64,000 nt of DNA from a virus. This document shows, in pieces, positions 14,799 through 39,323 of this stretch. Made by a program: the position numbers and the translations under genes. Location of the stretch: positions 1-64,000 of the IMG/VR virus record IMGVR_UViG_3300028920_000002. One strand, 5' to 3'. Numbering within the stretch: position 1 is the stretch's first letter; each line of letters begins with the position of its first letter. Below the pieces are notes generated by a model. It made no database searches, was not told the DNA's origin, and saw nothing but the letters and a program-made list of their open reading frames with translations.

Positions 14799-16545
14799 AT
14801 TCAGCGAAGAGATAATGCTCGCCTTCGAGGACGAGCTGCAGAAAGAGGCGGCCGGCGCTGGTCAGCTCATGTCCTTTCTGCGCGCTGGAGGGCAGGCTGG
14901 GCTGCGCCGAGGCGCTGGCGTAGGCGCGGTGGGGGGCGGTCTAGCCGGCGGGCTGACCGGGCGTGAGGAGGGCGAGAGGTTCAACGTCGGCCGGGCGCTG
15001 GCGGGCGCCGCGGGCGGCGCGGCCCTCGGCGCTGGCGCCGGGCACTTCGGCTCGAGGGTGATGATGGGCCGGCGGGCCGGATTGGGGCTAGGGGAATCGG
15101 CTCGCATGGCGAAGCAGGACATCGCCGCCACCGTGCGGGGCCTGAGCCCCAAGAGGGTGACGGACGCCGAGAGGGCCAGTGAGGGGCTACGCAAAGCCAT
15201 GGAGCGGGCTCCCACACAGAAGGCGCCGGTGGGCGCGCCTACGAGCGACACCGGCTACCTGCGGGCCTACCGACACATGGACGAGCAGACACGCATCCGG
15301 CGCGGTCTGCCACCCCGCTCCGTCACTCAGCCCAGCCCGCGGGCGCCCGCAGTGAGCGGCGAGGCCACCATCGCCAACCCGGGTGTGGCCCGCCGTAGGG
15401 CGCCTCAGACCGGCGAGGCTACCATTGCCTCTCCAGCTCGCCAGCGGGCGGCACAGCGCGCTGCCGAGCAAGACCTGCCCACCATCATGACCGGCGGGCC
15501 CACGCTCCAGTCAGCTGGTAAGACCACTTTGGCCTCGGCCAAGTATGCTGCCCCCGCCTGGTACACGGCGGCGCGGGGCGCCATGCAGAAAGCGCTGCCG
15601 GGCGCCCAGTCGCGCTTGATGGGCGCTGGTGCTGGCGCGTCCCTGGGAGCCGTGGGCGGGGCCGGGCTCGGCGCCGGGGTTGGCGGCGTCCGCGGCTATC
15701 AGCAGGCCCGACAGCAGGGCGCCACTAAGGGGCAGGCACTGCTCTACGGACTGGGTGGTGGAATGAAGGGCATGGCCTTGGGCGGCGCGGCCGGGTTGAC
15801 CGCGGGCGGCGCGGCCGGCGGCCTGCTGCGCGGTGGAGCAGGGGTAGCGCGGCGTACGGCCGAGCTTGGGGGAGCTACCGGGGCCGTCAGTCGCTTTGGG
15901 CAGCGTCAGATGCATGCTCTCACTGGTGCTCTGCCCCAGGGCATGCCTCGACTTTCAGCTCAGCGGAGTATCGGTGTCGGCGGCGCAGACCTCGCCAGTC
16001 AGCTCAACAAGGCCAAGGCCGGTCTAGCGAAGGCTGCTCCAGGCTCAAGAGAGGCTGCCAGCGCACAGAAGCAGATAGGCTCTCTGTCGAAGGGCATGGA
16101 ACATGCGCGTGCGCTCGAGCAGATGGGGGCTACCAACCTACCTGGATACGTCAAGGCTCTGGCGTCCAGGGATGCAGGTAAGGTGCTCAAGCATACGGCT
16201 GGCTCTCAGTGGCATGGCACTCCCGGTGTAGGGGGCAAGCTCATGGCCTTTGGGATGCCAGCTGGCTTCGTCGGTATGGAGACACTCGGTAAGCCGCAGC
16301 CTGGGCAAGAGGGAGAGAGCAAGCTTCGACGAGGGGCCAAGTCTGTTGCTACGAACCTGCCGTTCCTGCTTCCTATGGGTATGGCTGGTCAACTGGTTGC
16401 TTCCGGCGCTGCAGGTAAGCTGATGGGGCGCCGTGGCGGACGCGTCCCAAACCCGGAGCCAGAGGAGGCGTCGGCATCTGGGGACGTGGAGCGCATCTAC
16501 TCACCGTCTGCGATGGGTAGGCCGCCGGAGGGTATGCTCACATGA
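14791..16545 (+). CDS. Glycine-zipper virion protein, 584 aa
   Basis: The start is the ATG overlapping the previous stop; upstream in-frame codons give a Cys-rich sequence that looks non-coding. The N-terminus has EDELQKEAAGAG (residues 13-24), a clear example of the shared leader motif. At least three Gly/Ala-rich zipper blocks follow: around residues 35-90, 265-300 and 315-345 (for example LGAVGGAGLGAGVGGVRGYQ). Arg/Pro-rich linkers with a repeated GEATIA phrase separate them. Such zippers can pack in membranes, so the protein could be packaged in the head and inserted in the host envelope on infection; that is inference. The stop overlaps the portal ATG. Confidence 0.8.
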   Translation: MPRFSEEIMLAFEDELQKEAAGAGQLMSFLRAGGQAGLRRGAGVGAVGGGLAGGLTGREEGERFNVGRALAGAAGGAALGAGAGHFGSRVMMGRRAGLGLGESARMAKQDIAATVRGLSPKRVTDAERASEGLRKAMERAPTQKAPVGAPTSDTGYLRAYRHMDEQTRIRRGLPPRSVTQPSPRAPAVSGEATIANPGVARRRAPQTGEATIASPARQRAAQRAAEQDLPTIMTGGPTLQSAGKTTLASAKYAAPAWYTAARGAMQKALPGAQSRLMGAGAGASLGAVGGAGLGAGVGGVRGYQQARQQGATKGQALLYGLGGGMKGMALGGAAGLTAGGAAGGLLRGGAGVARRTAELGGATGAVSRFGQRQMHALTGALPQGMPRLSAQRSIGVGGADLASQLNKAKAGLAKAAPGSREAASAQKQIGSLSKGMEHARALEQMGATNLPGYVKALASRDAGKVLKHTAGSQWHGTPGVGGKLMAFGMPAGFVGMETLGKPQPGQEGESKLRRGAKSVATNLPFLLPMGMAGQLVASGAAGKLMGRRGGRVPNPEPEEASASGDVERIYSPSAMGRPPEGMLT

Positions 16546-18599
16546 CCTTTCCCGGGATGTTCAACTTCAGCTGCGGAGCTGCTGGCCCGGGGCGTGGCGG
16601 CGGGTACACACCGGGGCGCATGCGCGGTGGGTTGCAGGGACAAGGTCTCGGTTACCCCAATCCCTTCTTCGACATCGCCCACACGTATCTACCGGCGACC
16701 GTCAAGGAGATGTTCAAGTACTGCCGGTACTACTTCCTGACCAACGCGCTCATCAACGCGACGGTCTTCAAGTTGAGCGAGTACCCCGTCACCGACATCA
16801 TCATCGACCACGAGAACTCTGAGACGAAGAAGCGGTGGGAGGAGTACTTCCACGACCACCTGCAGTACCGGCCGTTCCAGGTTGAGTGCGGGCTCGACTA
16901 CAACACGTACGGCAACTGTCTGGTCAGCCTGAGCTTCCCCTTCCAGAAGTACCTCAAGTGCCGCGGCTGCGGCTACACCGAGCGCGCGGACAAGATTCGC
17001 CCCTTCTGGAAGTTCACCAACTTCGGCTTCCGCATGACCTGTCCGCATTGTGGGACGACCGAGGAGGCCATTGCCAAGGACGTCTACCTGAAGAACGCCA
17101 GCGGCATCAAGCTGCTGCGGTGGAACGTCGAAGACATCGAGATTCAGTACAACGACATCAGCGGTGAGTGCACGTACTACTACACCATTCCCCAGCCGCT
17201 GCGCTCGGACATCGTCATCGGCAAGAAGGAAGTCGTTGAAGGCGTACCCCAAATCTTCATCCAGGCGCTGCGTCAACAGAAGGGCATCATCTTCAGCAAG
17301 GACAACCTCTTCCACCTCAAGCGCCCGACGCTGGCGTGGCAAGACCGCGGCTGGGGCATCCCGCTCATCCTGCCGGTGCTCAAGGATACGTTCTACCTGC
17401 AAATCATGAAGAAGGCGCAGGAGGCGGTGCTGCTCGAGCACGTCGTCCCACTACGCGTTCTTTTCCCACAGGCGGCCTCCGGTACCAGCGACCCGTTCAC
17501 CACCATCAACCTGACCCAGTGGAAGGAACAGGTCGCCAGCGAGATTGCGCGGTGGCGCTACGACCACAACTACATCCCCATCATGCCGCTGCCTCTGGGC
17601 AATCAGAGCATCGGCGGCGACGGCAAGGCTCTTCTGCTCATGCAGGAGATGCAGATGTGGTCAGAGCACATCATCATGGGGATGGGCGTGCCCCGCGAAT
17701 TCCTCATGGGAGGCTTGAGCTATGCCGGCACCAACGTGTCGATGCGGATGCTCGAGAACGCGTTCATCGGTTACATCCTGCGCCACAAGCTGATGGCCAA
17801 CTGGGTGATGAAGATGGTCGCCAACTACATGGAGTGGCCCGAGGCGAAGATTCGCTTCAAGCCCTTCAAGATGGCCGACGACATCCAGCGCAAGGCGTAC
17901 CTGTTCCAACTCAACCAGGCGCAGAAGATTTCGGACACCACGCTGCTCGCCGATGCCGACCTCAACATGGAGGAGGAGGACGAAATCATGGTCCACGAGA
18001 CGGATAAGCGTCTCGAGTCGACCAAGAAGCAGCAGCTCGCGATGGCCCAGATTCAGGGAGAGTCTCAGGTCATCATGATGAAGATGCAGGCCAAGGCACA
18101 GGAGGCCATGCAGGCTGCTCAGATGGGTCCTCAGGCTCCCGGAGAGCCAGGCGGCCCCGAGGGCCCGCTGCCGGGCATGCCGCCCGGTGCTGGCGCCCCT
18201 CCGCCCGGCGCCGCGGGCGTCCCCATGGGCGGCCCTCCAGCGCCCATGCCGGAGGCCGGGGGTGGCGGCCCGACTGGCGGCATGCCTGCTGAGGCACAGA
18301 GCCAACTCGGCGCTGGCCAGGACCTGGGCGCGCCTCCTGGGCAGGAGCAGATGGGTGTGGACCTGGTTCAACTGGCGGAGGGATACGCGGCTCAGGTCGC
18401 TCAGCTCCAGCCGGAGCAACAGGAGCTGGCGCTGCAGGCCATCGAGGCTCAGAGTCCCGAGCTTGCTCAGCTGGTGCAGCAGTTCATGTCCCTCATGATG
18501 CGCGGCCAAGCTGGGCAGCACTTGGGCGGGGAGCCCCAAGTAGACATGCGCCCACTGCCGGAGAAGCTGCCGCCGCGGCGTGAAGCGGCGATGGTCTGA
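16542..18599 (+). CDS. Portal protein with internal zinc ribbon
   Basis: The 685-residue protein fits the dodecameric portal through which DNA enters the head. Portal-like features are an alpha/beta clip-stem region with KEQVASEIARWRYDHNYIP, then MQMWSEHIIMGMGVPREFLMG, which resembles the conserved region before the long portal helix, and SYAGTNVSMRMLENAF. Residues 140-170 carry CRGC and CPHC (C140, C143, C167, C170), a zinc ribbon inserted in the N-terminal half. The C-terminal 150 residues are Gln/Pro/Gly/Met-rich and probably disordered or crown-like. The start overlaps the upstream gene by four bases, and a strong hairpin region follows. Confidence 0.82.
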   Translation: MTFPGMFNFSCGAAGPGRGGGYTPGRMRGGLQGQGLGYPNPFFDIAHTYLPATVKEMFKYCRYYFLTNALINATVFKLSEYPVTDIIIDHENSETKKRWEEYFHDHLQYRPFQVECGLDYNTYGNCLVSLSFPFQKYLKCRGCGYTERADKIRPFWKFTNFGFRMTCPHCGTTEEAIAKDVYLKNASGIKLLRWNVEDIEIQYNDISGECTYYYTIPQPLRSDIVIGKKEVVEGVPQIFIQALRQQKGIIFSKDNLFHLKRPTLAWQDRGWGIPLILPVLKDTFYLQIMKKAQEAVLLEHVVPLRVLFPQAASGTSDPFTTINLTQWKEQVASEIARWRYDHNYIPIMPLPLGNQSIGGDGKALLLMQEMQMWSEHIIMGMGVPREFLMGGLSYAGTNVSMRMLENAFIGYILRHKLMANWVMKMVANYMEWPEAKIRFKPFKMADDIQRKAYLFQLNQAQKISDTTLLADADLNMEEEDEIMVHETDKRLESTKKQQLAMAQIQGESQVIMMKMQAKAQEAMQAAQMGPQAPGEPGGPEGPLPGMPPGAGAPPPGAAGVPMGGPPAPMPEAGGGGPTGGMPAEAQSQLGAGQDLGAPPGQEQMGVDLVQLAEGYAAQVAQLQPEQQELALQAIEAQSPELAQLVQQFMSLMMRGQAGQHLGGEPQVDMRPLPEKLPPRREAAMV

Positions 18600-20766: not shown

Positions 20767-22031
20767 AGACCCAGTGCGTTCGCGTACTTGGACAGGCCCT
20801 TCTGCCCGAGGCGGTAGACGACCTCTTCGGACACCTTCTTCAACTCAGGGGTTGCGTCTGTGGAGTCGAAGTAGACGTTGTGCTTGACCAGTGCGGCAGA
20901 AGATTTGACGGCCATGTCGCTGATTTTCTTGTCCATGCATCTGCCCAGGATGTCCCAGGCCGCAGGAGCGAGCTTGAGCTGCTCTTTGCGATTGGGTCGT
21001 CCGGTGAGGTACGTCACCATGCTGGTGAGCGCTGCAGCAGTGATGTCCAACCGTTGTGGGTTGGGCGTCCAGCCGTTGGTGAGCATCTCGAGGGGCTTGG
21101 GCAGGTCGCATTCGCGCAACCAGGTCAGCCACTCCTTCATGACACCTTGGCCCACACAGGCTTGCACGAGCTCACGCTCCAGTTCTCCTCGTAGCGCCTT
21201 GCGCGCCTCAGCGGCCTTCATCTGGTTTTCGTCGCTCGGGTCGGTGACGGGCAGGTCTGGGTACAGGCATGCGGCAGTAGCCTTGGCACGGCCGGCCCAG
21301 TTCCAGGTGCGGTGGCTAGGCCATGCACCGCCAGAGTCCGCATCATCCGGTTTGGGCTGCTGGTGAATCAGGGACGGCTTGCGCTTCATGAAGCCAACCA
21401 GTTGACCGCGTACTTCGGGCCATTCGTCGGGCCAGGAGTTAGTAACTCGCTGCTCTCCTTTTAGGACTGCCTCTACACGGAGCTGCGCATTGCCGAGCAG
21501 CCAGTCAATCCACTCGTCTGCGCTGGGCGCTCTGTAGGCCACATGCGCCAGTCGGTTGGCCAGAGGGGGCTCGAGGCCGAATCCGCCAGCGGCGTACTCC
21601 GGCGGGTTCATCGCAGTGACCACTCGCACTTTGGGTGGCAGGATGTGGTCTCCAACCCTGCGTTCATTGACCACGCTGAGCAGAGCAGCCTGGACCGCAG
21701 GGCGAGCGCATGAAATCTCGTCGATGAACAAGACACCGTAGCCGGTGTCTAGGAGCTTCCTCGCTTGAGGCAGAATGCACTCAATGACCACGCCGTTGGG
21801 CGTGGCGAAGGGGGCTCCCGTGAAGTCCTCCGGCTGCTTTGTAGCCGGGTAGACGGTTTGAACATTGAGACCTACTGCTGCACCGGCGGCCTGGATGCGC
21901 TCGGATTTGCCGATGCCGGAGAGCCCTTCGATGTTCACGGGCAATCCCCAGATGCAGGCGGGATTTGTCGGCTCGCCGTGGGGGACGAGAAACGCTGTCG
22001 CTAGGAACTGTTCTAGGCTAGCCATATTCAT
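20763..22031 (-). CDS. MoxR-type AAA+ ATPase
   Basis: The 422-residue protein has Walker A GLSGIGKS (36-43), Walker B LFIDEISC (D104, E105), and a sensor 1 segment VTAMNPPEYAAGGFGL (N142) followed by an arginine at R160 in PPLANRLAHV. The sequence between Walker A and B (YPATKQPEDFTGAP) is typical of MoxR ATPases, which work with VWA partners. Residues 230-422 are helical and less conserved. The gene overlaps its VWA/metallopeptidase partner by four bases and the small upstream gene by 14, so the set is probably one operon. MoxR systems act as chaperone-like remodellers; why a phage keeps one is not evident. Confidence 0.88.
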   Translation of the reverse strand: MNMASLEQFLATAFLVPHGEPTNPACIWGLPVNIEGLSGIGKSERIQAAGAAVGLNVQTVYPATKQPEDFTGAPFATPNGVVIECILPQARKLLDTGYGVLFIDEISCARPAVQAALLSVVNERRVGDHILPPKVRVVTAMNPPEYAAGGFGLEPPLANRLAHVAYRAPSADEWIDWLLGNAQLRVEAVLKGEQRVTNSWPDEWPEVRGQLVGFMKRKPSLIHQQPKPDDADSGGAWPSHRTWNWAGRAKATAACLYPDLPVTDPSDENQMKAAEARKALRGELERELVQACVGQGVMKEWLTWLRECDLPKPLEMLTNGWTPNPQRLDITAAALTSMVTYLTGRPNRKEQLKLAPAAWDILGRCMDKKISDMAVKSSAALVKHNVYFDSTDATPELKKVSEEVVYRLGQKGLSKYANALGL

Positions 22032-22302
22032 TCAGCTGTTCGTTGACTTCTTTACACCACGCGGCAGGCATGACGGTGACCACTTGCTGCTCACCGACAA
22101 TGACCGCGAACCCATCTTCTCCGTAGAAGCAGAACGGGAAGTACCGTCCGCTTGGGGTGTCTACCACACGACCGCTACGCCTGGCGTCATCAATACGCTC
22201 GGTGAGCGTCTGCATGAGCTGGGCGTCGGAGTAGCGGCGGGCGTCAGACCACCTATCTCGGAATTGCGTTAGAGCATGGTGTGTGAACACCAGTGGCTTC
22301 AT
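22018..22302 (-). CDS. Small protein resembling DUF4258-type domains, 94 aa
   Basis: I start at the ATG of MKPLVFTHHA because it overlaps the upstream stop as ATGA. The pattern FTHHALTQFRDRW at the start, a helix, and two final strands (FAVIVGEQQVVTVMP) resemble small DUF4258-like domains with an H-A-x-x-R motif, found near toxin and RNase families. That resemblance is weak and unconfirmed. The gene is the third of the ATPase operon and could encode an accessory or independent enzyme. Confidence 0.6.
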   Translation of the reverse strand: MKPLVFTHHALTQFRDRWSDARRYSDAQLMQTLTERIDDARRSGRVVDTPSGRYFPFCFYGEDGFAVIVGEQQVVTVMPAAWCKEVNEQLNEYG

Positions 22303-22904
22303 CCGCCTCGTCGATATCTGCACCCGCCTTCGCATTCTCCTGTTCTCCAGCAGCGTCTCGAAGTCCCCTCCTCACATTCGCCGTGGTACGACAAGTTGCT
22401 CCAGAGCTCTAGTATGGACGAGGTGTACTCCCTCATGCATGAGATGCAGTAGAAGTCTGGAGCCTGCGTCCCTTGAAAGCAAATCGTCGATTCACCGTTC
22501 GGCGTCTGCTTTGGACGTTGGAGCCTGCCTAGTGTGGACATGCCACAAGGCTCCCAAGGTGGGATGTCACTGCTACAAATTGAGCACCTGCAGATGGAGT
22601 AGTCGCACAGCTCGGGGGCGAAGTTCCCGTAGGTCTCTTCCATGTGTTCGCGAAGCTTATCTATCGTCTCGTCCCAGCAGACCTCATCCAAGAACGACGG
22701 CTCGTAGCCATAGTCGCCCTCAGAGTTCAGCACTGGTCGGAATGTGAGTATGTTGCTCTCGTCGATGTGACCGTAGACGACCTGCACGAGCACTACATCG
22801 CTAGTCAAGTGCAGCGCCTCTCCGCATGAGTCACACTCGTGGCCTGACTGGAAGATGATGTTCTCCAGCTCAGCTTCATCCGGCGTTAGGGCAGCCGGGT
22901 CCAC
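22299..22904 (-). CDS. Zinc-finger-rich acidic protein, about 201 aa
   Basis: I favour the GTG at 22904 because GGAGGA lies seven bases upstream; an ATG at 22934 is an alternative with poorer spacing. The protein has CDSCGEALH near the N-terminus, then a dense Cys cluster (CDYSICRCSICSSDIPPWEPCG) and a CISCMREY motif, so it probably binds two or three zinc ions. The C-terminal end also has several Cys. The first 60 residues are acidic. No enzyme motif is visible. It lies in the operon leading to the MoxR ATPase and could be a regulator or adaptor. Confidence 0.62.
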   Translation of the reverse strand: MDPAALTPDEAELENIIFQSGHECDSCGEALHLTSDVVLVQVVYGHIDESNILTFRPVLNSEGDYGYEPSFLDEVCWDETIDKLREHMEETYGNFAPELCDYSICRCSICSSDIPPWEPCGMSTLGRLQRPKQTPNGESTICFQGTQAPDFYCISCMREYTSSILELWSNLSYHGECEEGTSRRCWRTGECEGGCRYRRGG

Positions 22905-23470
22905 ATCAGTTTCCTCCGTTCTACTCGAGACCATCGCCTCGAGAGGGTGAGCAGCCGTGGGTCTGGGTACATCCCGGTTTCGGGGTCCATATCCCACAAC
23001 AACATCTGCATCTCCTCGACGTCGGATGTAGCGTCTAGGTGAATGCGTCGGTCCAGCTGCAGATTGCTGGGTAAGAAGTGATGCTGGCACTGCGCCCTGA
23101 GGTCGAGCTCCCGCTCGTACAGGTCGTCGTCCAGGTCGATGGAGTCAACACAGAGTCCGTAGAACTCCGGGTCGTTTATACCCGGATACTCCTGGTTCGC
23201 CCAGAAGCACCACTCACCTGGTCTAGCCAGTTCCACCAGCAGCTCGAAGTCTCGTTGGTTGCAGAACGTGACGAAGCCCTTCTGGTCCACCAGTTTGACC
23301 CGCACCCCTCCCAGCGCTCTTCCGGGTATAGGGGCGTAGAGTTTGGTGACTGTCCACCTTCTTCCGAAGATTTTGGGGTCGTCGACACTCAGGCCGACAA
23401 CCCCAAAACCCTCGCTCAGCATTCGGGTTCCTGGATAGACGTTAAGGCCGCAGTATGGGTCCAAGAGCAC
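22886..23470 (-). CDS. Hypothetical protein, 194 aa
   Basis: This frame starts at a GTG with GGAG about ten bases upstream and overlaps the small membrane-protein gene before it. The first half is strand-rich (FGVVGLSVDDPKIFGRRWTV, then YAPIPGRALGGVRVKLVDQK), followed by an acidic helix with DSIDLDDDLYERELDLRAQC. Three Trp and several aromatic residues suggest a folded globular protein. I do not recognise a family. It is in the same transcription unit as the zinc-finger and ATPase genes. Confidence 0.65.
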   Translation of the reverse strand: MLLDPYCGLNVYPGTRMLSEGFGVVGLSVDDPKIFGRRWTVTKLYAPIPGRALGGVRVKLVDQKGFVTFCNQRDFELLVELARPGEWCFWANQEYPGINDPEFYGLCVDSIDLDDDLYERELDLRAQCQHHFLPSNLQLDRRIHLDATSDVEEMQMLLWDMDPETGMYPDPRLLTLSRRWSRVERRKLMWTRLP

Positions 23471-23815: not shown

Positions 23816-26800
23816 ATGGCGCGCCTAGACCCTAGTGAATCGTTCGCCGACTTCCGAGACCGCACGCTCGAGGGCATCCGTTCTCATTTCCCTGTCAAGG
23901 GAAGAACGCAGACGCTGGAGCTGGATGACCTGGAAGTCGATAGCGCAGGTATGGAGTCCGACGACATCCGTGGGCAGCATAGGGCTAAGGTAGAAGGCGC
24001 TAGTTGGAGTGCGCCGGTCTACGCCACTATGTCGCTGCGCGACAACGAGACGGGCAAGGCCAAGAAGCAGCGCATCAAGTTGGCTGAACTGCCGATGATG
24101 ACCAGGCGCTACAGCTACATCGTCAATGGCCAGGAGTATCAGGTCGACAACCAGTGGCAGCTCAAGCCGGGCGTTTACACACGCCGGCGCCAGAATGGTG
24201 AGCTCGAGTCTCGTTTCAACATCGTCAACAAGCCTCACTTCGACTTGAAGTTCGAGCCGGACAAGAAGCGCTTCTTGATGGAGCGTGGGAAGTCCAGCGC
24301 CATTCCTCTCTACCCGCTGATGAAGTCTCTCGGTATCAGCGACGACGACCTGGAGAAGACGTGGGGCAAAGAGATTCTCGAGCAGAACAAGGCAGCACGC
24401 GGCGTATCAGGCGCCCTAGAGAAATTCTACAAGGCGGACCGAAAGAAGTCGGCGCCGTCCAAGGAGGAAGCAGAGCGCTACTTCTACGAGACGATGATGC
24501 AGTCAGAGCTCCGTCCAGAAGCGACCAAGCGAACGCTGGGTAAGGAGTACAGCACTGTAGAGGGCGATGCCGTCCTGCGCGCCACGAAGCGGATGTTGGA
24601 GGTACAGAGTGGTGCCCCAGAGGACGACCGAGACTCTCTCGTCTTCAAGGACCTGCGCGGAGCAGGCGACTACGCGTTCGACCGACTGACAGACTACAAG
24701 ACGCGCCGTAGTCTGCAGGGCAAGATGGGGCGCCAAATCAACAACGCCAGAAGCATCCGCGACGTGATTCGTCCTGGAACCTTCGACGACCAGATTCGTA
24801 GGACCTTCACCGAGAACAAGGGCGCGACCCGCGTGCCGGAGCAAATCAATCCGGTAGAGATGATTGCTGGGTCACAGCAGACGACCGTTATGGGTCCCGG
24901 TGGCATTCAAAGCGAGAACGCCATCATGGATGAGACGAAGTTCATCAACCCGACGCACTTCGGGTTCTTGGACCCCATCCATACCCCGGAGGGCAACAAG
25001 ACTGGTGTGACGCTGCATCTGCCCATGGGAGTGAGCAAGAAGGGGAAGTCTCCGGTCATCCCGGTCTACAACCTGAAAACCGGCAAGGGTGAGCGCATCA
25101 CTCCTGAGCAGTTCATGGACTCTACAGTGGCGCTGCCCGACCAGATGAAGTGGAAGGACAACAAGCCCACTCCTGTTGGCAAGAAGGTCAAGGTATCCAC
25201 ACCCGGCAACGAGCTCGATGAGGTGGACCCGAAGGACGCGAAGTACGCGATGTACCATCCATCGCAGGCGTTCAGTATCACGAGCAACCTGGTTCCCTTC
25301 ATGGGGAACACCTCTGGCAACCGTGCCAGCTATGCCACGCACCACATCGAGCAAGCCATCAGCCTCAAGGACCGGGATGTGCCTCTGGTCCAGTCTGGTA
25401 CTGGTGGTCAGCGGGAGGGCCTACGTACCTTCGAGGAGCTGTTGGGTCGGGGCTCGTCGCATCCCTCGCCGATGGATGGCGAAGTAGTCAAGGTGAAGAA
25501 GGATGGCGTCATCGTTAAGGGCAAGGATGGCAAGACCCGAGAGATTCAGCTCTACAACAACTTCCCGCTCAACGATGCCAAGGCCGTCATCGACTCTACT
25601 CCGACGGTGAAGGTCGGCGATAAGGTGAAGCAGGGCCAGCCTGTTGCTGACACCAACTTCACCAAAAACGGCACGCTGGCATTGGGTAAGAACCTGCGTA
25701 CTGCCTATCTGCCATTCAAGGGCTACAACTTCGAGGATGGCGTAGTCATCAGTGAGAGCGCCGCCAAGAAGCTTACTAGTGTCCACATGCACAAGCCGGA
25801 CACCAGGGTCGCCGACAGCGACGTGACCGACCCGAAGAAGTTCCGGGTCTTTCACCCTGAAGCGTTCACGAAGGACCAGTACAAGCTGGTCGGAGATGAC
25901 GGTATCGTGCGTGTTGGCACAAGGGTGCAGAAGGGAGACCCCCTCGTACTCAATACCAAGCCCTATCAACTGCGCGACAGGACTGGTATCGCCGCTGTGC
26001 GCAAGAACGCCTCAGGTGCGCAGACCGACGCCTCATTGAAATGGGACTCGGACTACGCAGGGGAGGTGGTGGGCGTACACCGCGGAAAGAAGGGCCAGAT
26101 TGGCGTCCACGTTCGCACTGAAGAGCCGATGCAGGTCGGCGACAAGCTGACTGGGCGGCACGGCAACAAGGGCATCGTCACCAAGGTCATCCCTGATAAG
26201 GAGATGCCTCATACCAGAGATGGCAAGCCGATTGAGGTAGCGCTCAACCCCGCTGGCGTGCCCGGTCGTATGAATGTGGGTCAGGTGCTCGAGACTGCGG
26301 CGGCCAAGGTAGCTGAGAAGACTGGTAAGCCCTACATCGTTGAAAACTTCGAGCATGGCGTCGACCAACTCAAGCGGGTGAAATCCGACTTGAAGAAGCA
26401 CGGCTTGTCGGACACTGAAGAGCTCATCGACCCGAATACTGGCAAGAGTCTAGGTAACGTCCTCGTCGGTCCGCAGCACATGCTCAAGCTGCAGCATCAG
26501 GTAGACAAGAAGGCGTCGGCCCGCTCCGGTATGAGCCTCAAGGGTGAAGAGGGAGAGGGGTATGACTACAACCTGCAGCCGGTGGGTGGCAGCAAGACCG
26601 GAGCGCAGAGCGTAGGCAACTTGGGTATCTACACACTGCTCGCTCACGGCGCCAAGGCCAACATCCGAGAGATGCAGACCTGGAAGAGCGAGGGCGAGGA
26701 TACCAGCCCGGAGGGGAAGCGTTGGGCGTCTCAGCACAATGAGGTCTGGCGCGCCATCCAGAGTGGAGACCCGCTGCCGCCACCCAAGCCAACGTTCGCC

Positions 26801-29800
26801 TTCCACAAATTCACCGAGATGTTGAAGGCGGCTGGCATCAACGTTGAGAAGCGTGGCAACACCATGCAGCTCAACCCGCTCACCAACCAGGACATCCTGA
26901 ACATGTCAGCGGGGGAGCTCTCGAAGCCAGCGGACCGGCTTCGCCAGGGCAAGCTCGATGAGAATGGCGACCCCATGCCCATGAAGGGAGGGCTGTTCGA
27001 CCCGAAGCTCACCGGTGGGCACGGTGGGAAGAAGTGGACGCACTTCAAACTGGCAGAGCCAGTTCCGAATCCGGTCTTCGAGGGAGCCATCCAGCGGCTG
27101 ACTGGGCTCACCGGTAAGCAGTACGAGTCAGTCGTCAACGGTGAGCAGTCCATCGACCTCAAGACGAGGAAGGTCGTACCTCTTGGCAAGGGCGCGACGG
27201 GAGGCCCCGCCATCAAGAGCATGCTCGATGGCATCGACGTGAACAAGGAGCTGGAGCAGTCCATGAAGGAGCTGGAGGCGGTGAAGCTGCCTTCTGGATT
27301 CGCTCACGGCGCCAGCACCACGAAGCTCGACAAGGCGATGAAGAAGGTGAGGCACCTTCAAGTCCTCAAGGACAAGAAGATGAGCCCCTCCGACGCCTAT
27401 ATGCTGGAGAACGTACCGGTCATCCCGCCGGCGATGCGCACGGTCAGCGTGCTGAAGGACGGCGGCGTTCGCTGGGGCGATTTGAACCAGCTCTACTCCG
27501 ACCTCGCCCAGACCAATGGCGAGATGGGCAAGATGAAGCAGCGCTCCTACTTCGGCGACAAGGACCTGAAGGACAGTCGAAAGGATGTCTACGATGGGCT
27601 TCGCGCTTTGGTAGGTATTGGTTCCTCGCCGGCTGAGAAGGAGGCCAAGAACAAGGGCGTGCTGCAACAGATTGCTGGCAGTCAGCCGAAGAAGGGCTAC
27701 TTCCAGAACACCCTGATGAACCGTCGTCAGGACATGAGCATGCGCTCGACCATCGTTCCTGAGCCGGCGATGGGGTTGGATGAGGTGGGCATTCCTCAGG
27801 AGCATGCACTCAAGCTGTTCCGTCCGTTCGTCGTCAAGAAGATGATGGACATCGGCGTGGCTCCAACTGAGTTGGATGCTCAGCACATGCTGGCCGAGAA
27901 GAAGAAGGATAAGGGGGTGTGGCGGGCGCTGGACTTGGCGATGGAGGACCGGCCGGTTCTGATGAAGCGTGACCCCGCACTGCACAAGCATTCGATGCAG
28001 GCGTTTCGCCCTTACCGTACGAGCGGGCACGCTATCAAGATTCATCCGCTGGTGACCAATGGCTACAACGCTGACTTCGATGGCGACACCATGAGCATGT
28101 TCGTCCCCATCTCCAAGGAGGCAGTGGACGAAGCCAAGCAGATGCAGCCGTCGAACAACCTGTTCAACGAGGCGCAGGGTAAGGTTACCTACACTCCGAC
28201 CTTGGAGAGTTCATTAGGCTTGTACAAGATGAGCCGCGTGCGTGGTGATGGTAAACAGCAGTACAAGAACCCCACCGACGTGCTCAAAGCCGTGGAGGCG
28301 GGCAAACTGCCGATGGACGAGCTCGTCACCGTCGGTAAGATGAAGACTACTGGTGGCCGCATCATGCTCTCCTCCGCGCTGCCTAAGCCGCTGCAGAACA
28401 AGATGCTGACTGACCACAAGTTCGTCCTGGACAAGAACGGCGTTCATCAGCTCTACACAGACTTGGCGAAGAACCATCGTGCGGACTTCGGAGAGGCGGC
28501 GAACAAGCTCAAGGACTTTGGTTTCGACGCTTCCTACGGCTCAGTACGCGTGGCACATCCACAGCACAAGGGACCCAACGCCATCGCGGCTATGGAGAAC
28601 CCGAAGCAGAACGTCAAGTTCCTGCCGATGGGAGCGCATACCTTGTCGCTCGACGACCTGGAACCCGACCGTGAGGTCCGAGACCGGGAAATCGCCAAGG
28701 CGCAGAAGCAGGTGGACAAGATTCGCTCCATGAAAGGACTGTCCAAGCTCGAGCGCGACCGGCGCAGCGTAGCCATCTGGGAGAAGGCGGATGCCGACAT
28801 CGCTCGGAAGCATGTAGGTCGCGCTGAGGCTAGAGATGACCGCCTGCACCAGATGTTGGCGGCCGGCACTAAGCCAAGTTGGTCTCAGTACAAGCAGCTC
28901 AAGCTCGCGCCGATGGTAATGCAGGATGCGGCTAACCGGGACATCCCGACGCCCATCAAGCACTCCTACTCAGAGGGCCTCGACATGGGCGAGTACTGGA
29001 CCGGGATGCATGGCGCTCGGCGAGGTACGGTCCTCAAGGTTCAGGAGGTGCAGGAGCCCGGCTACTTCTCCAAGCAGCTCATCAACACCACGATGAACAT
29101 GGTGGTGAACAAGGATGACTGCGGCACCAAGCGGGGCATAGCGGTTCCGGTCGGCTCGAAGGATATCTACGACCGTGAGTTGGCAGCGCCGGTAACAGTC
29201 AAGGGAAAGACCTTCAAGCCGGGCACGATTCTGGGACCGGACCTGGTCGCTCAGATTCGCTCCCACGACAAGAACGCGCAGCTCGTTGTACGGAGCGCGC
29301 TTCGCTGCGAGCACGGTGATGGCCTCTGCCAGCACTGCGCCGGCCTGTCCGCCGACGGCACCTACTACAAGAAGGGCTCGAATCTGGGTGTGCTCTCTGC
29401 CCAGTCATTGGGTGAGCGCGCCGTGCAGCTGCCGATGAAGATGTTCCACAGCGGCGGCGTCAAGCAGGGCGGACGGGGCGGAGTGGTCGGTATGTTCGAC
29501 CGCACCAAGCAGCTGACTGAGCTGCCCAAGAAGATTCCAGACGCCTCAACCCTGGCCATGCACTCGGGTACCGTCGACAAGGTAGAGCGGGACCCCACCG
29601 GCACGAACGTATGGATTGGTGGGCAACGACATCACGTGCCGAAGGACCGCTCTGGTATGCCTCTGCACATTCCCTTGCCAGGTGAGAAGGTCAAGGGTTG
29701 GCAGCCACCTAGAGTAGGGATGAAGGTGGAGGCCGGCCAGTCACTTAGCGACCCCACCCGCACCTTCGTGAATCCGCACGACCTGTACAAGGCCACGCGT

Positions 29801-30271
29801 AGTATGGAGAAGGTGCAGAACCATCTAGTCAACGAGCTTCACGGCATCTACTCTGAAGAGGGCGTGCGCCGACAGCACATCGAGACCGTCGTGAAGGCTA
29901 TGGGTAATCTCACCCGCGTAAGGAATCCAGGAGACGCGCAGGGTATTTTGAAAGGCGAGTACCAGCCGACGTCCAGGTTGCGGGAGCTCAATCGTCAGTT
30001 GTCCCGACAGGGCAAGAAGCCCGTGCAGCACTCACCCATCCTCAAGGGCATCGACGTGATGCCACTCACCGTCCAGGAAGATTGGATGGCGAAGCTGAAC
30101 TACGCTCAGCTCCAGAGAACGCTCACGGAAGGAGCTGCGATAGGAGCGAAGTCGCATCTGCACGGTACTCATCCCATCCCTGCGGCAGCCTACGGCGCCG
30201 AGTTCGGTTTGACTGAGAAGCACAAGAAGAAGTATCCGCACTTGGCCAAAGTCCCCTCCTGGTCCTACTGA
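23816..30271 (+). CDS. Single-chain multisubunit-type RNA polymerase (beta and beta-prime halves fused)
   Basis: This 2151-residue protein carries both large-subunit regions of cellular-type RNA polymerase in one chain, order beta then beta-prime. Beta-like signatures include HTPEGNKTG (fork region), GYNFEDGVVISE, GRHGNKG (780-786) and GRMNVGQVLE. Beta-prime-like signatures follow: PAMRTVSVLKDGGVRWGDLN, RRQDMSMRSTIV, and the catalytic NADFDGD (1418-1424; Asp1420, 1422, 1424 bind Mg). DDCGT (C1769) and CEHGDGLCQHC (C1831, C1838, C1841) form the second beta-prime zinc site, followed by LGVLSAQSLGERAVQL and the trigger-loop region MKMFHSGG. The N-terminal beta-prime zinc ribbon is absent. It is smaller than bacterial beta plus beta-prime (about 2700). 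No alpha, omega or sigma gene is recognised nearby. It probably transcribes phage genes. Confidence 0.95.
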   Translation: MARLDPSESFADFRDRTLEGIRSHFPVKGRTQTLELDDLEVDSAGMESDDIRGQHRAKVEGASWSAPVYATMSLRDNETGKAKKQRIKLAELPMMTRRYSYIVNGQEYQVDNQWQLKPGVYTRRRQNGELESRFNIVNKPHFDLKFEPDKKRFLMERGKSSAIPLYPLMKSLGISDDDLEKTWGKEILEQNKAARGVSGALEKFYKADRKKSAPSKEEAERYFYETMMQSELRPEATKRTLGKEYSTVEGDAVLRATKRMLEVQSGAPEDDRDSLVFKDLRGAGDYAFDRLTDYKTRRSLQGKMGRQINNARSIRDVIRPGTFDDQIRRTFTENKGATRVPEQINPVEMIAGSQQTTVMGPGGIQSENAIMDETKFINPTHFGFLDPIHTPEGNKTGVTLHLPMGVSKKGKSPVIPVYNLKTGKGERITPEQFMDSTVALPDQMKWKDNKPTPVGKKVKVSTPGNELDEVDPKDAKYAMYHPSQAFSITSNLVPFMGNTSGNRASYATHHIEQAISLKDRDVPLVQSGTGGQREGLRTFEELLGRGSSHPSPMDGEVVKVKKDGVIVKGKDGKTREIQLYNNFPLNDAKAVIDSTPTVKVGDKVKQGQPVADTNFTKNGTLALGKNLRTAYLPFKGYNFEDGVVISESAAKKLTSVHMHKPDTRVADSDVTDPKKFRVFHPEAFTKDQYKLVGDDGIVRVGTRVQKGDPLVLNTKPYQLRDRTGIAAVRKNASGAQTDASLKWDSDYAGEVVGVHRGKKGQIGVHVRTEEPMQVGDKLTGRHGNKGIVTKVIPDKEMPHTRDGKPIEVALNPAGVPGRMNVGQVLETAAAKVAEKTGKPYIVENFEHGVDQLKRVKSDLKKHGLSDTEELIDPNTGKSLGNVLVGPQHMLKLQHQVDKKASARSGMSLKGEEGEGYDYNLQPVGGSKTGAQSVGNLGIYTLLAHGAKANIREMQTWKSEGEDTSPEGKRWASQHNEVWRAIQSGDPLPPPKPTFAFHKFTEMLKAAGINVEKRGNTMQLNPLTNQDILNMSAGELSKPADRLRQGKLDENGDPMPMKGGLFDPKLTGGHGGKKWTHFKLAEPVPNPVFEGAIQRLTGLTGKQYESVVNGEQSIDLKTRKVVPLGKGATGGPAIKSMLDGIDVNKELEQSMKELEAVKLPSGFAHGASTTKLDKAMKKVRHLQVLKDKKMSPSDAYMLENVPVIPPAMRTVSVLKDGGVRWGDLNQLYSDLAQTNGEMGKMKQRSYFGDKDLKDSRKDVYDGLRALVGIGSSPAEKEAKNKGVLQQIAGSQPKKGYFQNTLMNRRQDMSMRSTIVPEPAMGLDEVGIPQEHALKLFRPFVVKKMMDIGVAPTELDAQHMLAEKKKDKGVWRALDLAMEDRPVLMKRDPALHKHSMQAFRPYRTSGHAIKIHPLVTNGYNADFDGDTMSMFVPISKEAVDEAKQMQPSNNLFNEAQGKVTYTPTLESSLGLYKMSRVRGDGKQQYKNPTDVLKAVEAGKLPMDELVTVGKMKTTGGRIMLSSALPKPLQNKMLTDHKFVLDKNGVHQLYTDLAKNHRADFGEAANKLKDFGFDASYGSVRVAHPQHKGPNAIAAMENPKQNVKFLPMGAHTLSLDDLEPDREVRDREIAKAQKQVDKIRSMKGLSKLERDRRSVAIWEKADADIARKHVGRAEARDDRLHQMLAAGTKPSWSQYKQLKLAPMVMQDAANRDIPTPIKHSYSEGLDMGEYWTGMHGARRGTVLKVQEVQEPGYFSKQLINTTMNMVVNKDDCGTKRGIAVPVGSKDIYDRELAAPVTVKGKTFKPGTILGPDLVAQIRSHDKNAQLVVRSALRCEHGDGLCQHCAGLSADGTYYKKGSNLGVLSAQSLGERAVQLPMKMFHSGGVKQGGRGGVVGMFDRTKQLTELPKKIPDASTLAMHSGTVDKVERDPTGTNVWIGGQRHHVPKDRSGMPLHIPLPGEKVKGWQPPRVGMKVEAGQSLSDPTRTFVNPHDLYKATRSMEKVQNHLVNELHGIYSEEGVRRQHIETVVKAMGNLTRVRNPGDAQGILKGEYQPTSRLRELNRQLSRQGKKPVQHSPILKGIDVMPLTVQEDWMAKLNYAQLQRTLTEGAAIGAKSHLHGTHPIPAAAYGAEFGLTEKHKKKYPHLAKVPSWSY

Positions 30272-31506
30272 TGGGTCTCAAAGAGAACAAATTCTTCGAC
30301 CCGCTATCCTGGCGAAGCTTCGCTCATGGGGGCTGGTCTCAACCCGAGGGGTCCATCCCAGCCTACATACACGAGGCCAGGGTCATCGATGTCAATCTGA
30401 CCAACTGGACCATCGATTGCCACACCATCTTCGACCAGAAGATGTTCTTGGACGTACAGGTCGCCTCCCCCTACATGCACCCAGCTCGCGGAGAGGGGAT
30501 GTATGTCATCCCGGAAGTTGGTGCGAAGTGCCTCATCTGTATTCCATCGGATGGGCCTCCGCCGTTCGTCTTGGCCTTCCTAATGCCGATGGAGACCAAG
30601 ACCAAGACCACTGCCGTCACCGACCCCATCGAGGCGAATGACTCGAACGCCAGCTTTGGCGGTGGGCGCAAACGCCCCAAGCCCGGAGACATCGTCGTTC
30701 AGGGTCGTGACGGGAACTTCATGCGGCTCCACCGTGGAGGGGTTGCGGAGTTTGGAGCCAGCCAGTTGGCCCAACGCATCTGCATTCCGCTCGGCAACCT
30801 CGTCACGGACATCAGTCAGAACTACAACCACTTCAACTCTGGCGGGGCCATCAACTGGGGCGTCCGAGATGGTGGTACGAGCAACCCGGAGTCGGAGTAC
30901 AGACACACCATTCGTGTGTTCGCGGATGACGAGTACGCGGACATGCGCTTCGCCATGGGCAAGTTGAAGCGCCCGGTGGCTGAGCCAGTAGGAGAAGACG
31001 GCGAGACCTCGAACTTGGAGCAGCTCGGTATCGGAACTACCGAGGACATCGTGTTCGAGATGGTACTTGCGCCCGGTGGGTTCGATGGTGGAAACGGCGA
31101 CCAGAAGGATGTGAAGGAAACTCGAGACCTGACCAAGCTGCGCATCTTCTTCGACCGCGGTGGCAACGCCATGGCTCGCTTCGAGGGAGCTGTGGATATG
31201 CGTGTGAAGAAGCGACTCAAGCTGACGGTGGACGAAGACATCGACATCATCGGCAAGAAGCGCATCTCCATCGAGGCCACGGAGATTCTGCGCCTGATTG
31301 GCCAGAATGGTCTCGAGCTTGGTACGGGTGGTGGAGTCACAGCCATCAACGGTGGTACGAAGGCTGTTGCCTACGTAGGCTCTCCAGTGACTGTTACCGT
31401 CCCCCCAGGGCTTCTGGTTACTACACCCGGAGGTGAAGGCTTCGTGAACCCAGGTCAGACCTTCACCGGATTCATCACGCTCGGCAACTCTACCATTCTC
31501 GTCTGA
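30271..31506 (+). CDS. Tail-spike or baseplate-hub-like protein with OB-fold and beta-helix regions
   Basis: The 411-residue protein starts on the last base of the polymerase stop codon. Residues about 30-110 look like the OB-fold of gp5/gpV-type spikes (ARVIDVNLTNWTIDCHTIFD; ARGEGMYVIPEVGAKCLICI). Residues about 310-360 show short alternating strands (KKRLKLTVDEDIDIIGKKRI) as in a triple-stranded beta-helix. The C-terminal part is Gly/Thr/Val-rich. Contractile phages use such spikes at the tail tip to pierce the outer membrane. The assignment rests on pattern and contractile-tail context; it is far from the sheath genes. Confidence 0.6.
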   Translation: MGLKENKFFDPLSWRSFAHGGWSQPEGSIPAYIHEARVIDVNLTNWTIDCHTIFDQKMFLDVQVASPYMHPARGEGMYVIPEVGAKCLICIPSDGPPPFVLAFLMPMETKTKTTAVTDPIEANDSNASFGGGRKRPKPGDIVVQGRDGNFMRLHRGGVAEFGASQLAQRICIPLGNLVTDISQNYNHFNSGGAINWGVRDGGTSNPESEYRHTIRVFADDEYADMRFAMGKLKRPVAEPVGEDGETSNLEQLGIGTTEDIVFEMVLAPGGFDGGNGDQKDVKETRDLTKLRIFFDRGGNAMARFEGAVDMRVKKRLKLTVDEDIDIIGKKRISIEATEILRLIGQNGLELGTGGGVTAINGGTKAVAYVGSPVTVTVPPGLLVTTPGGEGFVNPGQTFTGFITLGNSTILV

Positions 31507-37275: not shown

Positions 37276-37528
37276 ACTCCACGCGCTGGTTGTAGAAGCG
37301 CACGTTGCCGAACGTCCATCCGCACGCCGCTCCATACTGACGTATGTACTCACGAAGGCTCTCCCTCGCTTTGGGCAGAACACCACTCAGCTGAAATGCC
37401 ACCCGGTAGCCATCATCCTCTTCCCACGCCTGGACCAACCCTGTCAGGTTACCAGCGGCCCGATTCAGAGATTCCCACAGACCGCGCACTGCCTGTTCGG
37501 GGTCGCTCGTAGACTCAGGGGGGAACAT
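36998..37528 (-). CDS. Possible antisense gene head-to-head with terminase
   Basis: The 251 bases between the gene at 36814-37275 and the terminase have no plus-strand gene. The minus strand reads open from an ATG at 37528, which shares CATG with the terminase start. The first 85-90 codons look like a real protein (LWESLNRAAGNLTGLVQAWE; VAFQLSGVLPKARESLREYI; ACGWTFGNVRFYNQRVEFSC). The last half, antisense to the neighbour, is Arg/Ser/Pro-rich and looks non-coding. No ribosome site is visible. It may be a small gene whose true end was lost by a frameshift, or chance. Confidence 0.35.
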   Translation of the reverse strand: MFPPESTSDPEQAVRGLWESLNRAAGNLTGLVQAWEEDDGYRVAFQLSGVLPKARESLREYIRQYGAACGWTFGNVRFYNQRVEFSCSKSLVLHRASRRSARPASQETDLPQNPALGTTTRPLPQCISPPAADAPPRSVLVLSGPALRRSAQSSIASTVAPPPAFPDSRELADRNG

Positions 37529-39323
37529 GGCGGCTGAACAAGTCTACGTCGAACCAGAGGATGAGTGGGACGATAGTTGGTTCGACGACCGCATATGGAC
37601 ACCAGAGCCCGAGATTGTAGAGCAGCCGCTCGTCATACGTCAGAAGCGGAAGAAGCTGCCGAGAATACCGGAGGTTAGACCTTCGGACTTCACCGCCTTC
37701 GCCTTCCGCATGCCGAGGGAGGACGAAGAAGGGCGCATCGTCATCGACAACTTCTCGTTCGAGGGTCGCCGTCATCTGCGCCGTATATACGACACTCCCG
37801 CTAAGAAGCTGCTGCTCATCTGTGGTCGACAGGTCGAGAAGTCCACACTGCTGGGGAACATCGCTCTCTGCTACATGAGTCTAGTGCAGGGCTACCGCGT
37901 CTTGTACGTCAGCCCTTCTGCAACGCAGACGAAGACGTTCAGCAACGACCGAGTCAAGGAGCCGATTGAGACCAGTCCGATTCTCAAGAAGTTCACGACT
38001 CACATGCTGTCGCAGAACATCTTCGAGAAACAGTTCATCAACCGCAGCAAGATTACGATGCGGTACGCATTCCTCAATGCGGACCGAGCTCGAGGTATCC
38101 CCTCGTACATGCTGGACGTCGATGAGTTGCAAGACATCCTCGGAGACAACCTGCCGGTTCTCGAAGAGTGCCTCAGCCACGCTCCCGACCGTTGGAAGAG
38201 ACAGGTCTACTCAGGAACGCCCAAGAGTCTCGATAACACCATCGAGCAGTACCGCGTAAAGCGCTCAACGCAGAGTGAGTGGGTGGTGCCACACAACTGT
38301 AGAGGAGGAGAGGGAGGTCGCTTCTGGAACATCCTTGGTGAGAAGAACATCGGGCTGAAAGGTCTCATCTGTGAGAACTGCGGCACTCTCATCGACCCCA
38401 TGTGTGACGACGCGCAGTGGGCCTGCATGGTCTACCCCAGCGACAAGGTGGACTTCGAGAGCTACCGAATCTCTCAATTGATGGTGCCTTGGGTACCCTG
38501 GATTGACGTCCTCACGAAGTATCGGAACTACGGGCGCGACCGGTTCTACAACGAGGTGTTGGGGCTGAGCTATGACTCGGGGCTACGCCCGCTCACCATG
38601 CAGCAGGTGAAGGACCGATGCATGGACCACATCACCATGTCTGCAGTGGAGGCGTATCGGTCCAGAGCCTACACCACTCCGGTCTTCGCCGGCATCGACT
38701 GGGGTACTGGAGAGCACAGCTACACCGTCGTCTTCTTGGGCACCTACGTCGACATGCAGTTCCGCGTCTTCTTCGCTCACCGATTCACTGGTGAGGAGAC
38801 TGAACCCGAGCTGCAAATCAAGCGCATCATCGAACTCCTGCGGTACTTCAACGTCCGGCTCATCGGCTGCGACTATGGTGGCGGGTTCGCCATGAACCAC
38901 CGGCTCATTCGAGAGTTCGGAGCCGACAAGGTTCATCAGTTTCAGTATCTGGCACGAACCACCGGTAAGAAGGTGCAGTGGGACCCCAAGATGGGCCGCT
39001 GGAAGATTGCACGCACCGAAGTGATGAGCGACATCTTCAACGCCATCAAGCGCAACAAGTGCGAATTTCCTCGGTGGGAGGAGTTCGAGGAGCCTCACGG
39101 CAGTGACATGCTGAACATCTACTCGGAGTACAACGAGAAGCTCCGCATGATTCAGTACGACCACTCCCCCGACAACCCAGACGATTCCTTCCACGCGTTC
39201 TTGTACTGCTGGTTGGTGAGCATGCTCATCATCCCACGTCCTGACATCGTCGCGCCGACGAAGGAGGACCCACGTACTGGAATGCCCATGCAGAACTTCG
39301 CAGGTCCGGTAGACCAGAGCTAG
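37527..39323 (+). CDS. Terminase large subunit
   Basis: The 598-residue ATPase-nuclease packages DNA into the head. The ATPase shows the terminase-type Walker A GRQVEKST (100-107) and Walker B YMLDVDE (D198, D199 region, E200). The coupling segment is VYSGTPKSLDNT. The RNase H-like nuclease has FAGIDWGTGE (D391), LIGCDYGGG (D449) and a C-terminal DDSFHAFLYC acidic motif. A zinc-ribbon-like insert between the domains has ICENC (C282, C285) with C258, C293 and C300 near. AGGGGGGA lies upstream of the ATG. The stop shares CTAG with the stop of the convergent gene. Confidence 0.95.
   Translation: MAAEQVYVEPEDEWDDSWFDDRIWTPEPEIVEQPLVIRQKRKKLPRIPEVRPSDFTAFAFRMPREDEEGRIVIDNFSFEGRRHLRRIYDTPAKKLLLICGRQVEKSTLLGNIALCYMSLVQGYRVLYVSPSATQTKTFSNDRVKEPIETSPILKKFTTHMLSQNIFEKQFINRSKITMRYAFLNADRARGIPSYMLDVDELQDILGDNLPVLEECLSHAPDRWKRQVYSGTPKSLDNTIEQYRVKRSTQSEWVVPHNCRGGEGGRFWNILGEKNIGLKGLICENCGTLIDPMCDDAQWACMVYPSDKVDFESYRISQLMVPWVPWIDVLTKYRNYGRDRFYNEVLGLSYDSGLRPLTMQQVKDRCMDHITMSAVEAYRSRAYTTPVFAGIDWGTGEHSYTVVFLGTYVDMQFRVFFAHRFTGEETEPELQIKRIIELLRYFNVRLIGCDYGGGFAMNHRLIREFGADKVHQFQYLARTTGKKVQWDPKMGRWKIARTEVMSDIFNAIKRNKCEFPRWEEFEEPHGSDMLNIYSEYNEKLRMIQYDHSPDNPDDSFHAFLYCWLVSMLIIPRPDIVAPTKEDPRTGMPMQNFAGPVDQS

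Follow-up and report, generated by a model that had tools for sequence, protein, structure and literature searches.

On the plus strand of the analysed window (64,000 nucleotides of viral DNA, belonging to a contig of 186,723 bp), positions 23816..30271 form one uninterrupted open reading frame that runs from ATG to stop and encodes a fused RNA polymerase beta-beta' protein of 2151 aa. When the window was shuffled 100 times by mononucleotide, no frame exceeded 454 codons. The beta part comprises residues 1 to about 1016 (23816..26863, +), as recognised by the Pfam models Rpb2_3 (E 2e-8) and Rpb2_6 (2.7e-63), the rpoB models TIGR02013 and NF001616, and alignment with E. coli RpoB. The beta' part comprises residues from about 1017 to 2151 (26864..30268, +) and matches Rpb1_1, Rpb1_2 (4.3e-27), Rpb1_5 (3.9e-19), the rpoC model TIGR02386 (450 bits) and, in Foldseek, beta' of T. 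thermophilus (E 2e-50). The top NCBIfam matches of the whole protein are fused beta/beta' models at 492 and 476 bits, both far under their cut-offs, followed by rpoC (450 bits) and rpoB (388 bits). An assembly chimera can be excluded because the same fused single frame is present in about 60 other phage contigs. The original prediction of a complete beta/beta' polymerase in a single 2151-residue chain was confirmed by the reading frame, by profile models matching both halves, and by the catalytic residues.

As had been anticipated, the signatures of beta and then those of beta' follow one another within this frame, from residue 639 to residue 1877 (all +). FEDGVVISE begins at residue 639 (25730..25756), where E640/D641 correspond to E813/D814 of E. 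coli beta. GRHGNKG, at residue 780 (26153..26173), holds the catalytic beta lysine K785 (E. coli K1073), and K777, the equivalent of K1065, lies slightly upstream. In the beta' part, RRQDMSMRST of the switch region (residue 1303; 27722..27751) contains the counterparts of R346/R352. NADFDGD (residue 1418; 28067..28087) provides the catalytic Mg-binding aspartates D1420, D1422 and D1424 by alignment with E. coli, and its ADFDGD residues are invariant across 26 relatives. The second beta' zinc site (Cys 1769/1831/1838/1841; 29120..29338, by the same alignment) is followed by the trigger-loop FHSGG at residue 1877 (29444..29458), in which H1878 matches beta' H936. In E. coli numbering, R678, E813, D814, K1065, K1073 and R1106 of beta are kept, as are K334, R352, R425, D460/462/464, H936 and the second zinc-site cysteines of beta'. 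The single exception among the catalytic residues compared is beta' R933, which is replaced by Lys. It can be seen that the beta and beta' catalytic residues defining the core of a bacterial multisubunit RNA polymerase are present in one chain.

The two parts meet at 26813..26995 (+), a junction delimited in alignments with 26 relatives, with Salmonella phage Arash and Vibrio phage D69, and with E. coli. Here, the beta C-terminal anchor (FHKFTEMLKAAGINV) passes into the beta' N-terminal segment (DILNMSAGELSKP...GGLFD) within about 20 residues, and beta' zinc ribbon 1 is deleted relative to E. coli. The junction is short and conserved across all 26 full-length relatives, and Arash and Vibrio D69 carry a homologous one. 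These features bear on the idea that the chain, once made, is split into beta and beta' (or N- and C-terminal) parts, which would make the working enzyme multisubunit. Proteolysis is common among phage structural proteins, and the C-terminal part of beta' is a separate protein in the group of Arash and its Vibrio relatives; however, there is no long linker, the anchor and the beta' N-terminus being joined by a short conserved segment rather than a variable one. Such processing is considered quite improbable. AlphaFold models of two overlapping parts reached moderate values (pLDDT 73, pTM 0.53-0.54); in the first of them, the region of the catalytic barrel had low confidence. Because these models are partial and the global TM to beta is low (0.29), structural statements rest mainly on sequence.

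About 60 contigs of IMG/VR encode a complete single chain with the same junction, at 39-65% identity; the nearer phage relatives are 53-65% identical. The fusion is common to a large lineage of phages of about 185 kb. Cultured Salmonella phage Arash and Vibrio phages D69, D148 and D181 form a monophyletic sister group, whose enzyme is homologous (31-32% identity over the shared length), has the same junction, lies adjacent to the portal gene and is accompanied by a sigma-like homologue. In this sister group, the beta/beta' fusion is kept but beta' breaks off beyond the catalytic barrel, its C-terminal portion being on a second gene. Arash Gp206 is annotated as 'beta' only, yet it also includes the beta' barrel, in which the catalytic aspartates lie. 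Within the lineage, the analysis found no member in which beta and beta' are separate. Two wastewater records named as Enterococcus/Staphylococcus phages (L220 and L221), in which beta and beta' are separate, group with Firmicutes and look bacterial.

In an unrooted IQ-TREE phylogeny (LG+F+G4) built with no archaeal outgroup, the phage sequences form a clade with 100/100 support that falls within none of the bacterial phyla sampled, each of which keeps a clade of its own. The closest cellular identity is 28-29%. Judged from this tree and these identities, the polymerase is not a gene of any sampled bacterial phylum, and the placement within the host's own rpoBC that would have contradicted the original prediction was not observed. 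Fused rpoBC does occur in some bacteria, a further case being seen here in Woesebacteria (L201), and recent capture of a host rpoBC pair, followed by its fusion, could be imagined. Nevertheless, the best cellular identity stands against 53-65% with the nearer phage relatives, the polymerase falls within no sampled phylum, the bacterial fused rpoBC models score far under cut-off and beta' zinc ribbon 1 is missing; recent capture is therefore regarded as extremely improbable. Rooting with NCLDV beta' was rejected as uninformative: the outgroup, on a branch of length 2.2, joined Parcubacteria-like sequences (48/50 support), and long branches dominate that tree. The 'monophyly' of bacteria was also dropped as an argument for a non-bacterial origin, since in an unrooted tree it is the same split as the monophyly of the phages.

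Several known polymerases resemble this one in part. The fused rpoBC of Helicobacter and Wolbachia joins beta and beta' in the same order; these are cellular enzymes that retain alpha and omega, and the fused models NF007172 and NF011417 score here at only about one tenth of cut-off. Identity with the YonO/crAss type was rejected: its members are described as having diverged far from the cellular subunits, and the present protein scores strongly on cellular models. The phiKZ/AR9-type enzymes likewise have bacterial-type catalytic parts encoded by the phage and lack alpha and omega, with a vRNAP delivered in the virion (PMC7598289), but they are made of 4-5 highly diverged chains without recognisable sigma, as against one chain of near-cellular sequence with a sigma-like protein. 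Identity with the phiKZ type was rejected because one unbroken chain takes the place of several genes. The predicted distinctness from both types was accordingly borne out. In gp66 of crAss-like phi14:2 and in gp64/gp96 of P23-45, both barrels also lie in one polypeptide, and the virion contains the crAss enzyme and gp96 of P23-45 (PMC7886860, PMC10770324); these belong to the diverged single-subunit/QDE-1-like side of the two-barrel enzymes, in contrast to the bacterial beta and beta' sequence found here from end to end.

A close likeness by published description is to the mReC lineage (Weinheimer & Aylward 2020, PMC7481178), known from IMG/VR contigs, some near 200 kb: tailed-phage beta and beta' that clearly resemble the cellular subunits and, in that study, form a clade apart from them. 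That lineage was delimited by similarity to COG0085/COG0086, more than 800 aa for each subunit, and NADxDGD. With Pfam and NCBIfam models used as equivalent tests, the present protein shows the cellular similarity, the length and the motif (NADFDGD at 1418). The mReC capsid signature PF07068 was detected in none of 14 genomes, with the control also silent, and the terminase PF03237 matched weakly in 9 of 14 and not in this contig. The suggestion that the enzyme belongs to mReC, or is a fused member of it, was upheld for similarity, length and motif, and the polymerase probably represents either a fused branch within this lineage or its sister. In PMC7481178, beta and beta' are described as subunits, fusion is mentioned for crAssphage only, and nothing is reported of a fused form, of sigma or of location in the virion. 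Literature searches returned no description of a phage beta-beta' fusion of this type.

The statement that no alpha, omega or sigma gene is visible holds for the window, and for alpha and omega it extends to the whole contig. Alpha (RNA_pol_L, PF01193) was found in 0 of 18 related genomes and not in this contig, and omega (PF01192) was likewise not detected in this contig; the enzyme departs in this respect from bacterial multisubunit polymerases, with their alpha dimer and omega. For sigma, the statement fails beyond the window, as contig positions 102953-103963 encode a sigma70-family-like protein. Homologues are present in 18 of 18 related genomes (E 1e-16 to 1e-83), and relatives give matches to Sigma70_r3 (up to 1.3e-11), to SigB/F/G and FliA/WhiG models and, in the PDB, to sigma70 of E. 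coli. In these relatives, region 3 exceeds its cut-off (44.8 bits against 25.3), and regions 2 and 4 are only weak. This genome's own protein scores under the Pfam gathering cut-offs, and the SigB/F/G model gives 3.1e-6 for it and 1.5e-9 in a relative. No shared promoter motif was found in the upstream regions searched, for which gene calls were rough.

The source is a tailed phage, with portal and terminase genes near the polymerase gene. The portal gene (16542..18599, +) is homologous to Arash Gp204 (31% over 504 aa, E 1.7e-86) and lies upstream of the polymerase in the relatives whose contigs are long enough to show it. The polymerase stop codon is overlapped by a gene (30271..31506, +) with weak baseplate/injector OB similarity (Phage_base_V, below cut-off), and the terminase large subunit follows at 37527..39323 (+; phrog_675, E 4.4e-55; Arash Gp1 homologue). 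The portal-polymerase-terminase order is conserved in the lineage, and the polymerase gene is a fixed member of a virion-morphogenesis block of portal, polymerase, tail/baseplate and terminase. An SNF2 helicase at contig 171781-173217, homologous to Arash Gp217, was present in just 5 of 14 genomes and is not a core partner.

Virion mass spectrometry of Arash (PMC10585845) places Gp206 at the top, with 3516 spectra, 128 unique peptides and 100% coverage; the C-terminal beta' protein Gp216 gave 1210 spectra and the sigma Gp10 gave 467. Normalised to length, these three reach 2.0-2.3 spectra per residue, compared with 1.5 for the portal. The Arash polymerase is, however, only about 31% identical to the present one and has beta' in two pieces. 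In the same preparation 116 proteins were listed, ribonucleotide reductase and primase among them, and the authors allow for carry-over (PMC10585845). A late non-virion enzyme, produced with host RNA polymerase once the cell is infected and transcribing middle and late genes, would fit the presence of replication and nucleotide-metabolism enzymes in Arash particles. Early genes could depend on host polymerase, the contig having only one polymerase locus, and phiKZ-type phages own a separate non-virion enzyme (PMC7598289). However, no other protein of the Arash virion is detected as strongly as the homologue, which also outranks the portal per residue, whereas ribonucleotide reductase and primase gave few unique peptides, and the polymerase gene sits within the structural block across the lineage. 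A late enzyme carried over into particles is thus considered rather unlikely.

An alpha-free, sigma-dependent, virion-packaged RNA polymerase, with a single-chain core and a phage sigma performing early transcription from the virion, appears fairly likely, although we infer catalysis, sigma dependence and packaging in this phage. Both double-psi barrels, the clamp, the bridge helix and the trigger loop would fold in cis, and therefore the alpha dimer and omega would be unneeded to join beta and beta'. The sigma70-family-like protein may supply promoter recognition, giving a two-protein alpha-free holoenzyme. Production of this holoenzyme would most likely be late; it would then be loaded into the head and, on injection along with the DNA, transcribe early genes of the phage with no need of host polymerase. 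Insensitivity to rifampicin would be expected. The wider proposal, that the fusion is ancestral to the lineage, the Arash and Vibrio enzymes are secondary splits, and a two-protein holoenzyme of single-chain beta-beta' core and sigma, without alpha or omega, is virion-packaged and transcribes from entry, is a possibility to which we give slightly less than an even chance.

These findings bear on two open questions, namely how an RNA polymerase works without the alpha assembly platform, and whether phage polymerases originated from cellular ones or before them. Arash and Vibrio D69, D148 and D181 offer cultured models for the lineage, and it is predicted that the Arash 'beta' protein Gp206 bears both catalytic barrels. 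One gene could suffice to express a single chain with the full catalytic apparatus of bacteria, and its reconstitution with one sigma would give a minimal sigma-dependent polymerase.

The 2151 residues of the polymerase are encoded by one open reading frame (window 23816-30271), compared with a longest frame of 454 codons in shuffled windows. In the profile search, the beta domains Rpb2_3 and Rpb2_6 precede the beta' domains Rpb1_1, Rpb1_2, and Rpb1_5, bearing out the original prediction of complete beta and beta' in one unbroken frame. Both halves match bacterial models, with scores (rpoC 450, rpoB 388 bits) far above those of archaeal profiles (A' 96/77, B 145/128 bits), and by its sequence the polymerase is thus bacterial-type. 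Among PDB sequences, bacterial beta' chains were matched with E-values down to 1e-97. Alignment to E. coli indicates that R678, E813, D814, K1065, K1073, and R1106 of RpoB and K334, R352, R425, D460, D462, D464, and H936 of RpoC are present, while trigger-loop R933 is replaced by Lys. In the structural modelling proposed earlier as a check, models of residues 480-1660 and 1100-2151 (pLDDT 73 for both) had their best matches in beta (E 9e-31) and beta' (E 2e-50) of bacteria, at limited global confidence. Residues at positions known to contact rifampicin are replaced (Q513R, F514V, D516E, H526G, R529Q, S531T, and I572T), so that insensitivity to rifampicin is predicted.

One polymerase locus exists in the 186,723-bp IMG/VR virus record, whose bases 1-64000 make up the window. 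The portal (window 16542-18599) and terminase (window 37527-39323) genes identify a tailed phage, and both flank the polymerase gene in the compared single-chain relatives with contigs reaching that far. An opposite-strand block between portal and polymerase (window 19396-23470; HNH endonuclease-like, ATPase, and two unknowns) is an insertion of this sub-clade, with no matches in the compared loci L020, L126, L131, and L139 or in Salmonella phage Arash.

The first IMG/VR scan gave 45 loci, nearly all covering residues 1-2151. Checked reading frames are single and uninterrupted in about 60 distinct contigs, with identity down to 39%; the remaining scanned loci are contig-end fragments or contain in-frame inserts. 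The beta/beta' fusion is therefore a trait of the whole phage lineage, whose near-complete, longest records are 178-202 kb. Alignment of 26 full-length relatives shows a short, conserved junction, at which the C-terminal anchor of beta, F..FT.ML...GIN.EK.G, runs straight into the beta' N-terminus SPLTD.Q.L..S.GE...KP...GGLFD...TGG, and beta' zinc ribbon 1 is deleted. In-frame inserts of roughly 290-480 aa are found in the polymerase genes of loci L018, L022, L025, L029, L031, L035 (three inserts), L041, L099, and L103, the last two assigned from position only. They lie at catalytic sites (HTPEG/N394, GDK~778, GNKG~786, ~813, NADFDGD/1424, and FH/S1879). Most begin with Cys and end with Asn/Asp followed by Ser/Thr/Cys; LAGLIDADG endonuclease domains are carried, with intein-splicing domains in two cases, and the inserts look like inteins. 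The window's copy is without any such insert.

In the tree (IQ-TREE, LG+F+G4, bacteria of several phyla included), the phage clade of fused forms, Arash, and Vibrio phage D69 has support of 100/100. Placement within the host's own rpoBC had been named beforehand as contrary evidence; in this tree the clade lies outside sampled bacterial groups such as Planctomycetes (100/100), Microgenomates/WWE3 (100/100), and most Firmicutes (98.8/98). The closest cellular match among GTDB genomes is 28-29%. On a Candidatus Woesebacteria contig (L201:5813-12898), rpoB and rpoC share one 2362-codon frame, a cellular fusion other than those of Helicobacter and Wolbachia. Separate bacterial-type rpoB/rpoC were found in records labelled Acinetobacter phage MD-2021a, Enterococcus phage Efs 1-1-1, and Staphylococcus phage SA 1306 Kay (L227, L220, L221), which are probably bacterial contigs; the first also holds ribosomal protein genes. 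Cobetia phage Carin-5 and Yersinia phage YerA41, with separate beta and beta', lie on a distant long branch.

Among cultured phages, Vibrio phages D181, D148, and D69 and Arash match the polymerase at 31-32%. In Arash and D69, the first frame (1525 and ~1530 aa) comprises beta and the beta' barrel including the catalytic aspartates, with a junction homologous to that of the window polymerase; C-beta' lies on a second frame (606 and 609 aa). D181 (OZ196140, L226) shows a further break: near residue 500, where D69 is uninterrupted, a gene for a homing endonuclease interrupts its polymerase gene. According to a third scan there are two basic architectures, the full chain and the split form (beta-Nbeta' plus Cbeta'), and a few split forms contain one more break. 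Because fused locus L305 branches ahead of both groups (support 0.863) and the split forms are one clade (0.999), the lineage probably began with the full fusion and acquired the split later, a direction with only moderate support.

Alpha is absent from the window's contig and 18 relatives, and omega from the contig; neither had been visible at first reading. The lack of a sigma gene, also noted then, applies to the window only: a 336-aa sigma-like frame, out of view because it lies outside the window (contig 102953-103963), is homologous (E 1e-17) to Arash Gp10, annotated as a sigma factor. Homologues occur in 18/18 genomes, and those of relatives match sigma family models and also sigma region 3, the latter with scores above cut-off. 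A 159-aa protein (contig 129205-129684; L052:5205-5681), in which the helix-turn-helix of sigma70 region 4 is clear (37 bits) but is the only sigma part, is possibly a second transcription factor. A 1329-aa frame (contig 169231-173220; L054:5231-9217) combines LigD 3'-phosphoesterase, ATP-dependent ligase, inorganic pyrophosphatase, and SNF2 helicase domains, the helicase part homologous to Gp217 of the Arash virion.

Phage beta/beta' akin to cellular enzymes were already known from multimeric RNAP-encoding Caudovirales (PMC7481178), as were the single-chain two-barrel enzymes of crAss and P23-45 phages. In the literature searched, we found no account of a single-chain polymerase that has complete beta and beta' of bacterial type, comes with its own sigma, and is conserved throughout a lineage. 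In Arash virions, the polymerase homologue is the protein with most spectra (PMC10585845); in the same data, C-beta' and sigma have similar spectra per residue, higher than the portal's. These spectra and the portal-terminase location favour packaging in the virion over the main rival, a late enzyme kept out of the virion, which appears rather unlikely. As in crAss-like, P23-45, and phiKZ-type phages, packaging of the polymerase for early transcription is proposed here with reasonable confidence: the phage sigma would direct the single-chain core, and this core, carried in the virion, would serve early transcription.
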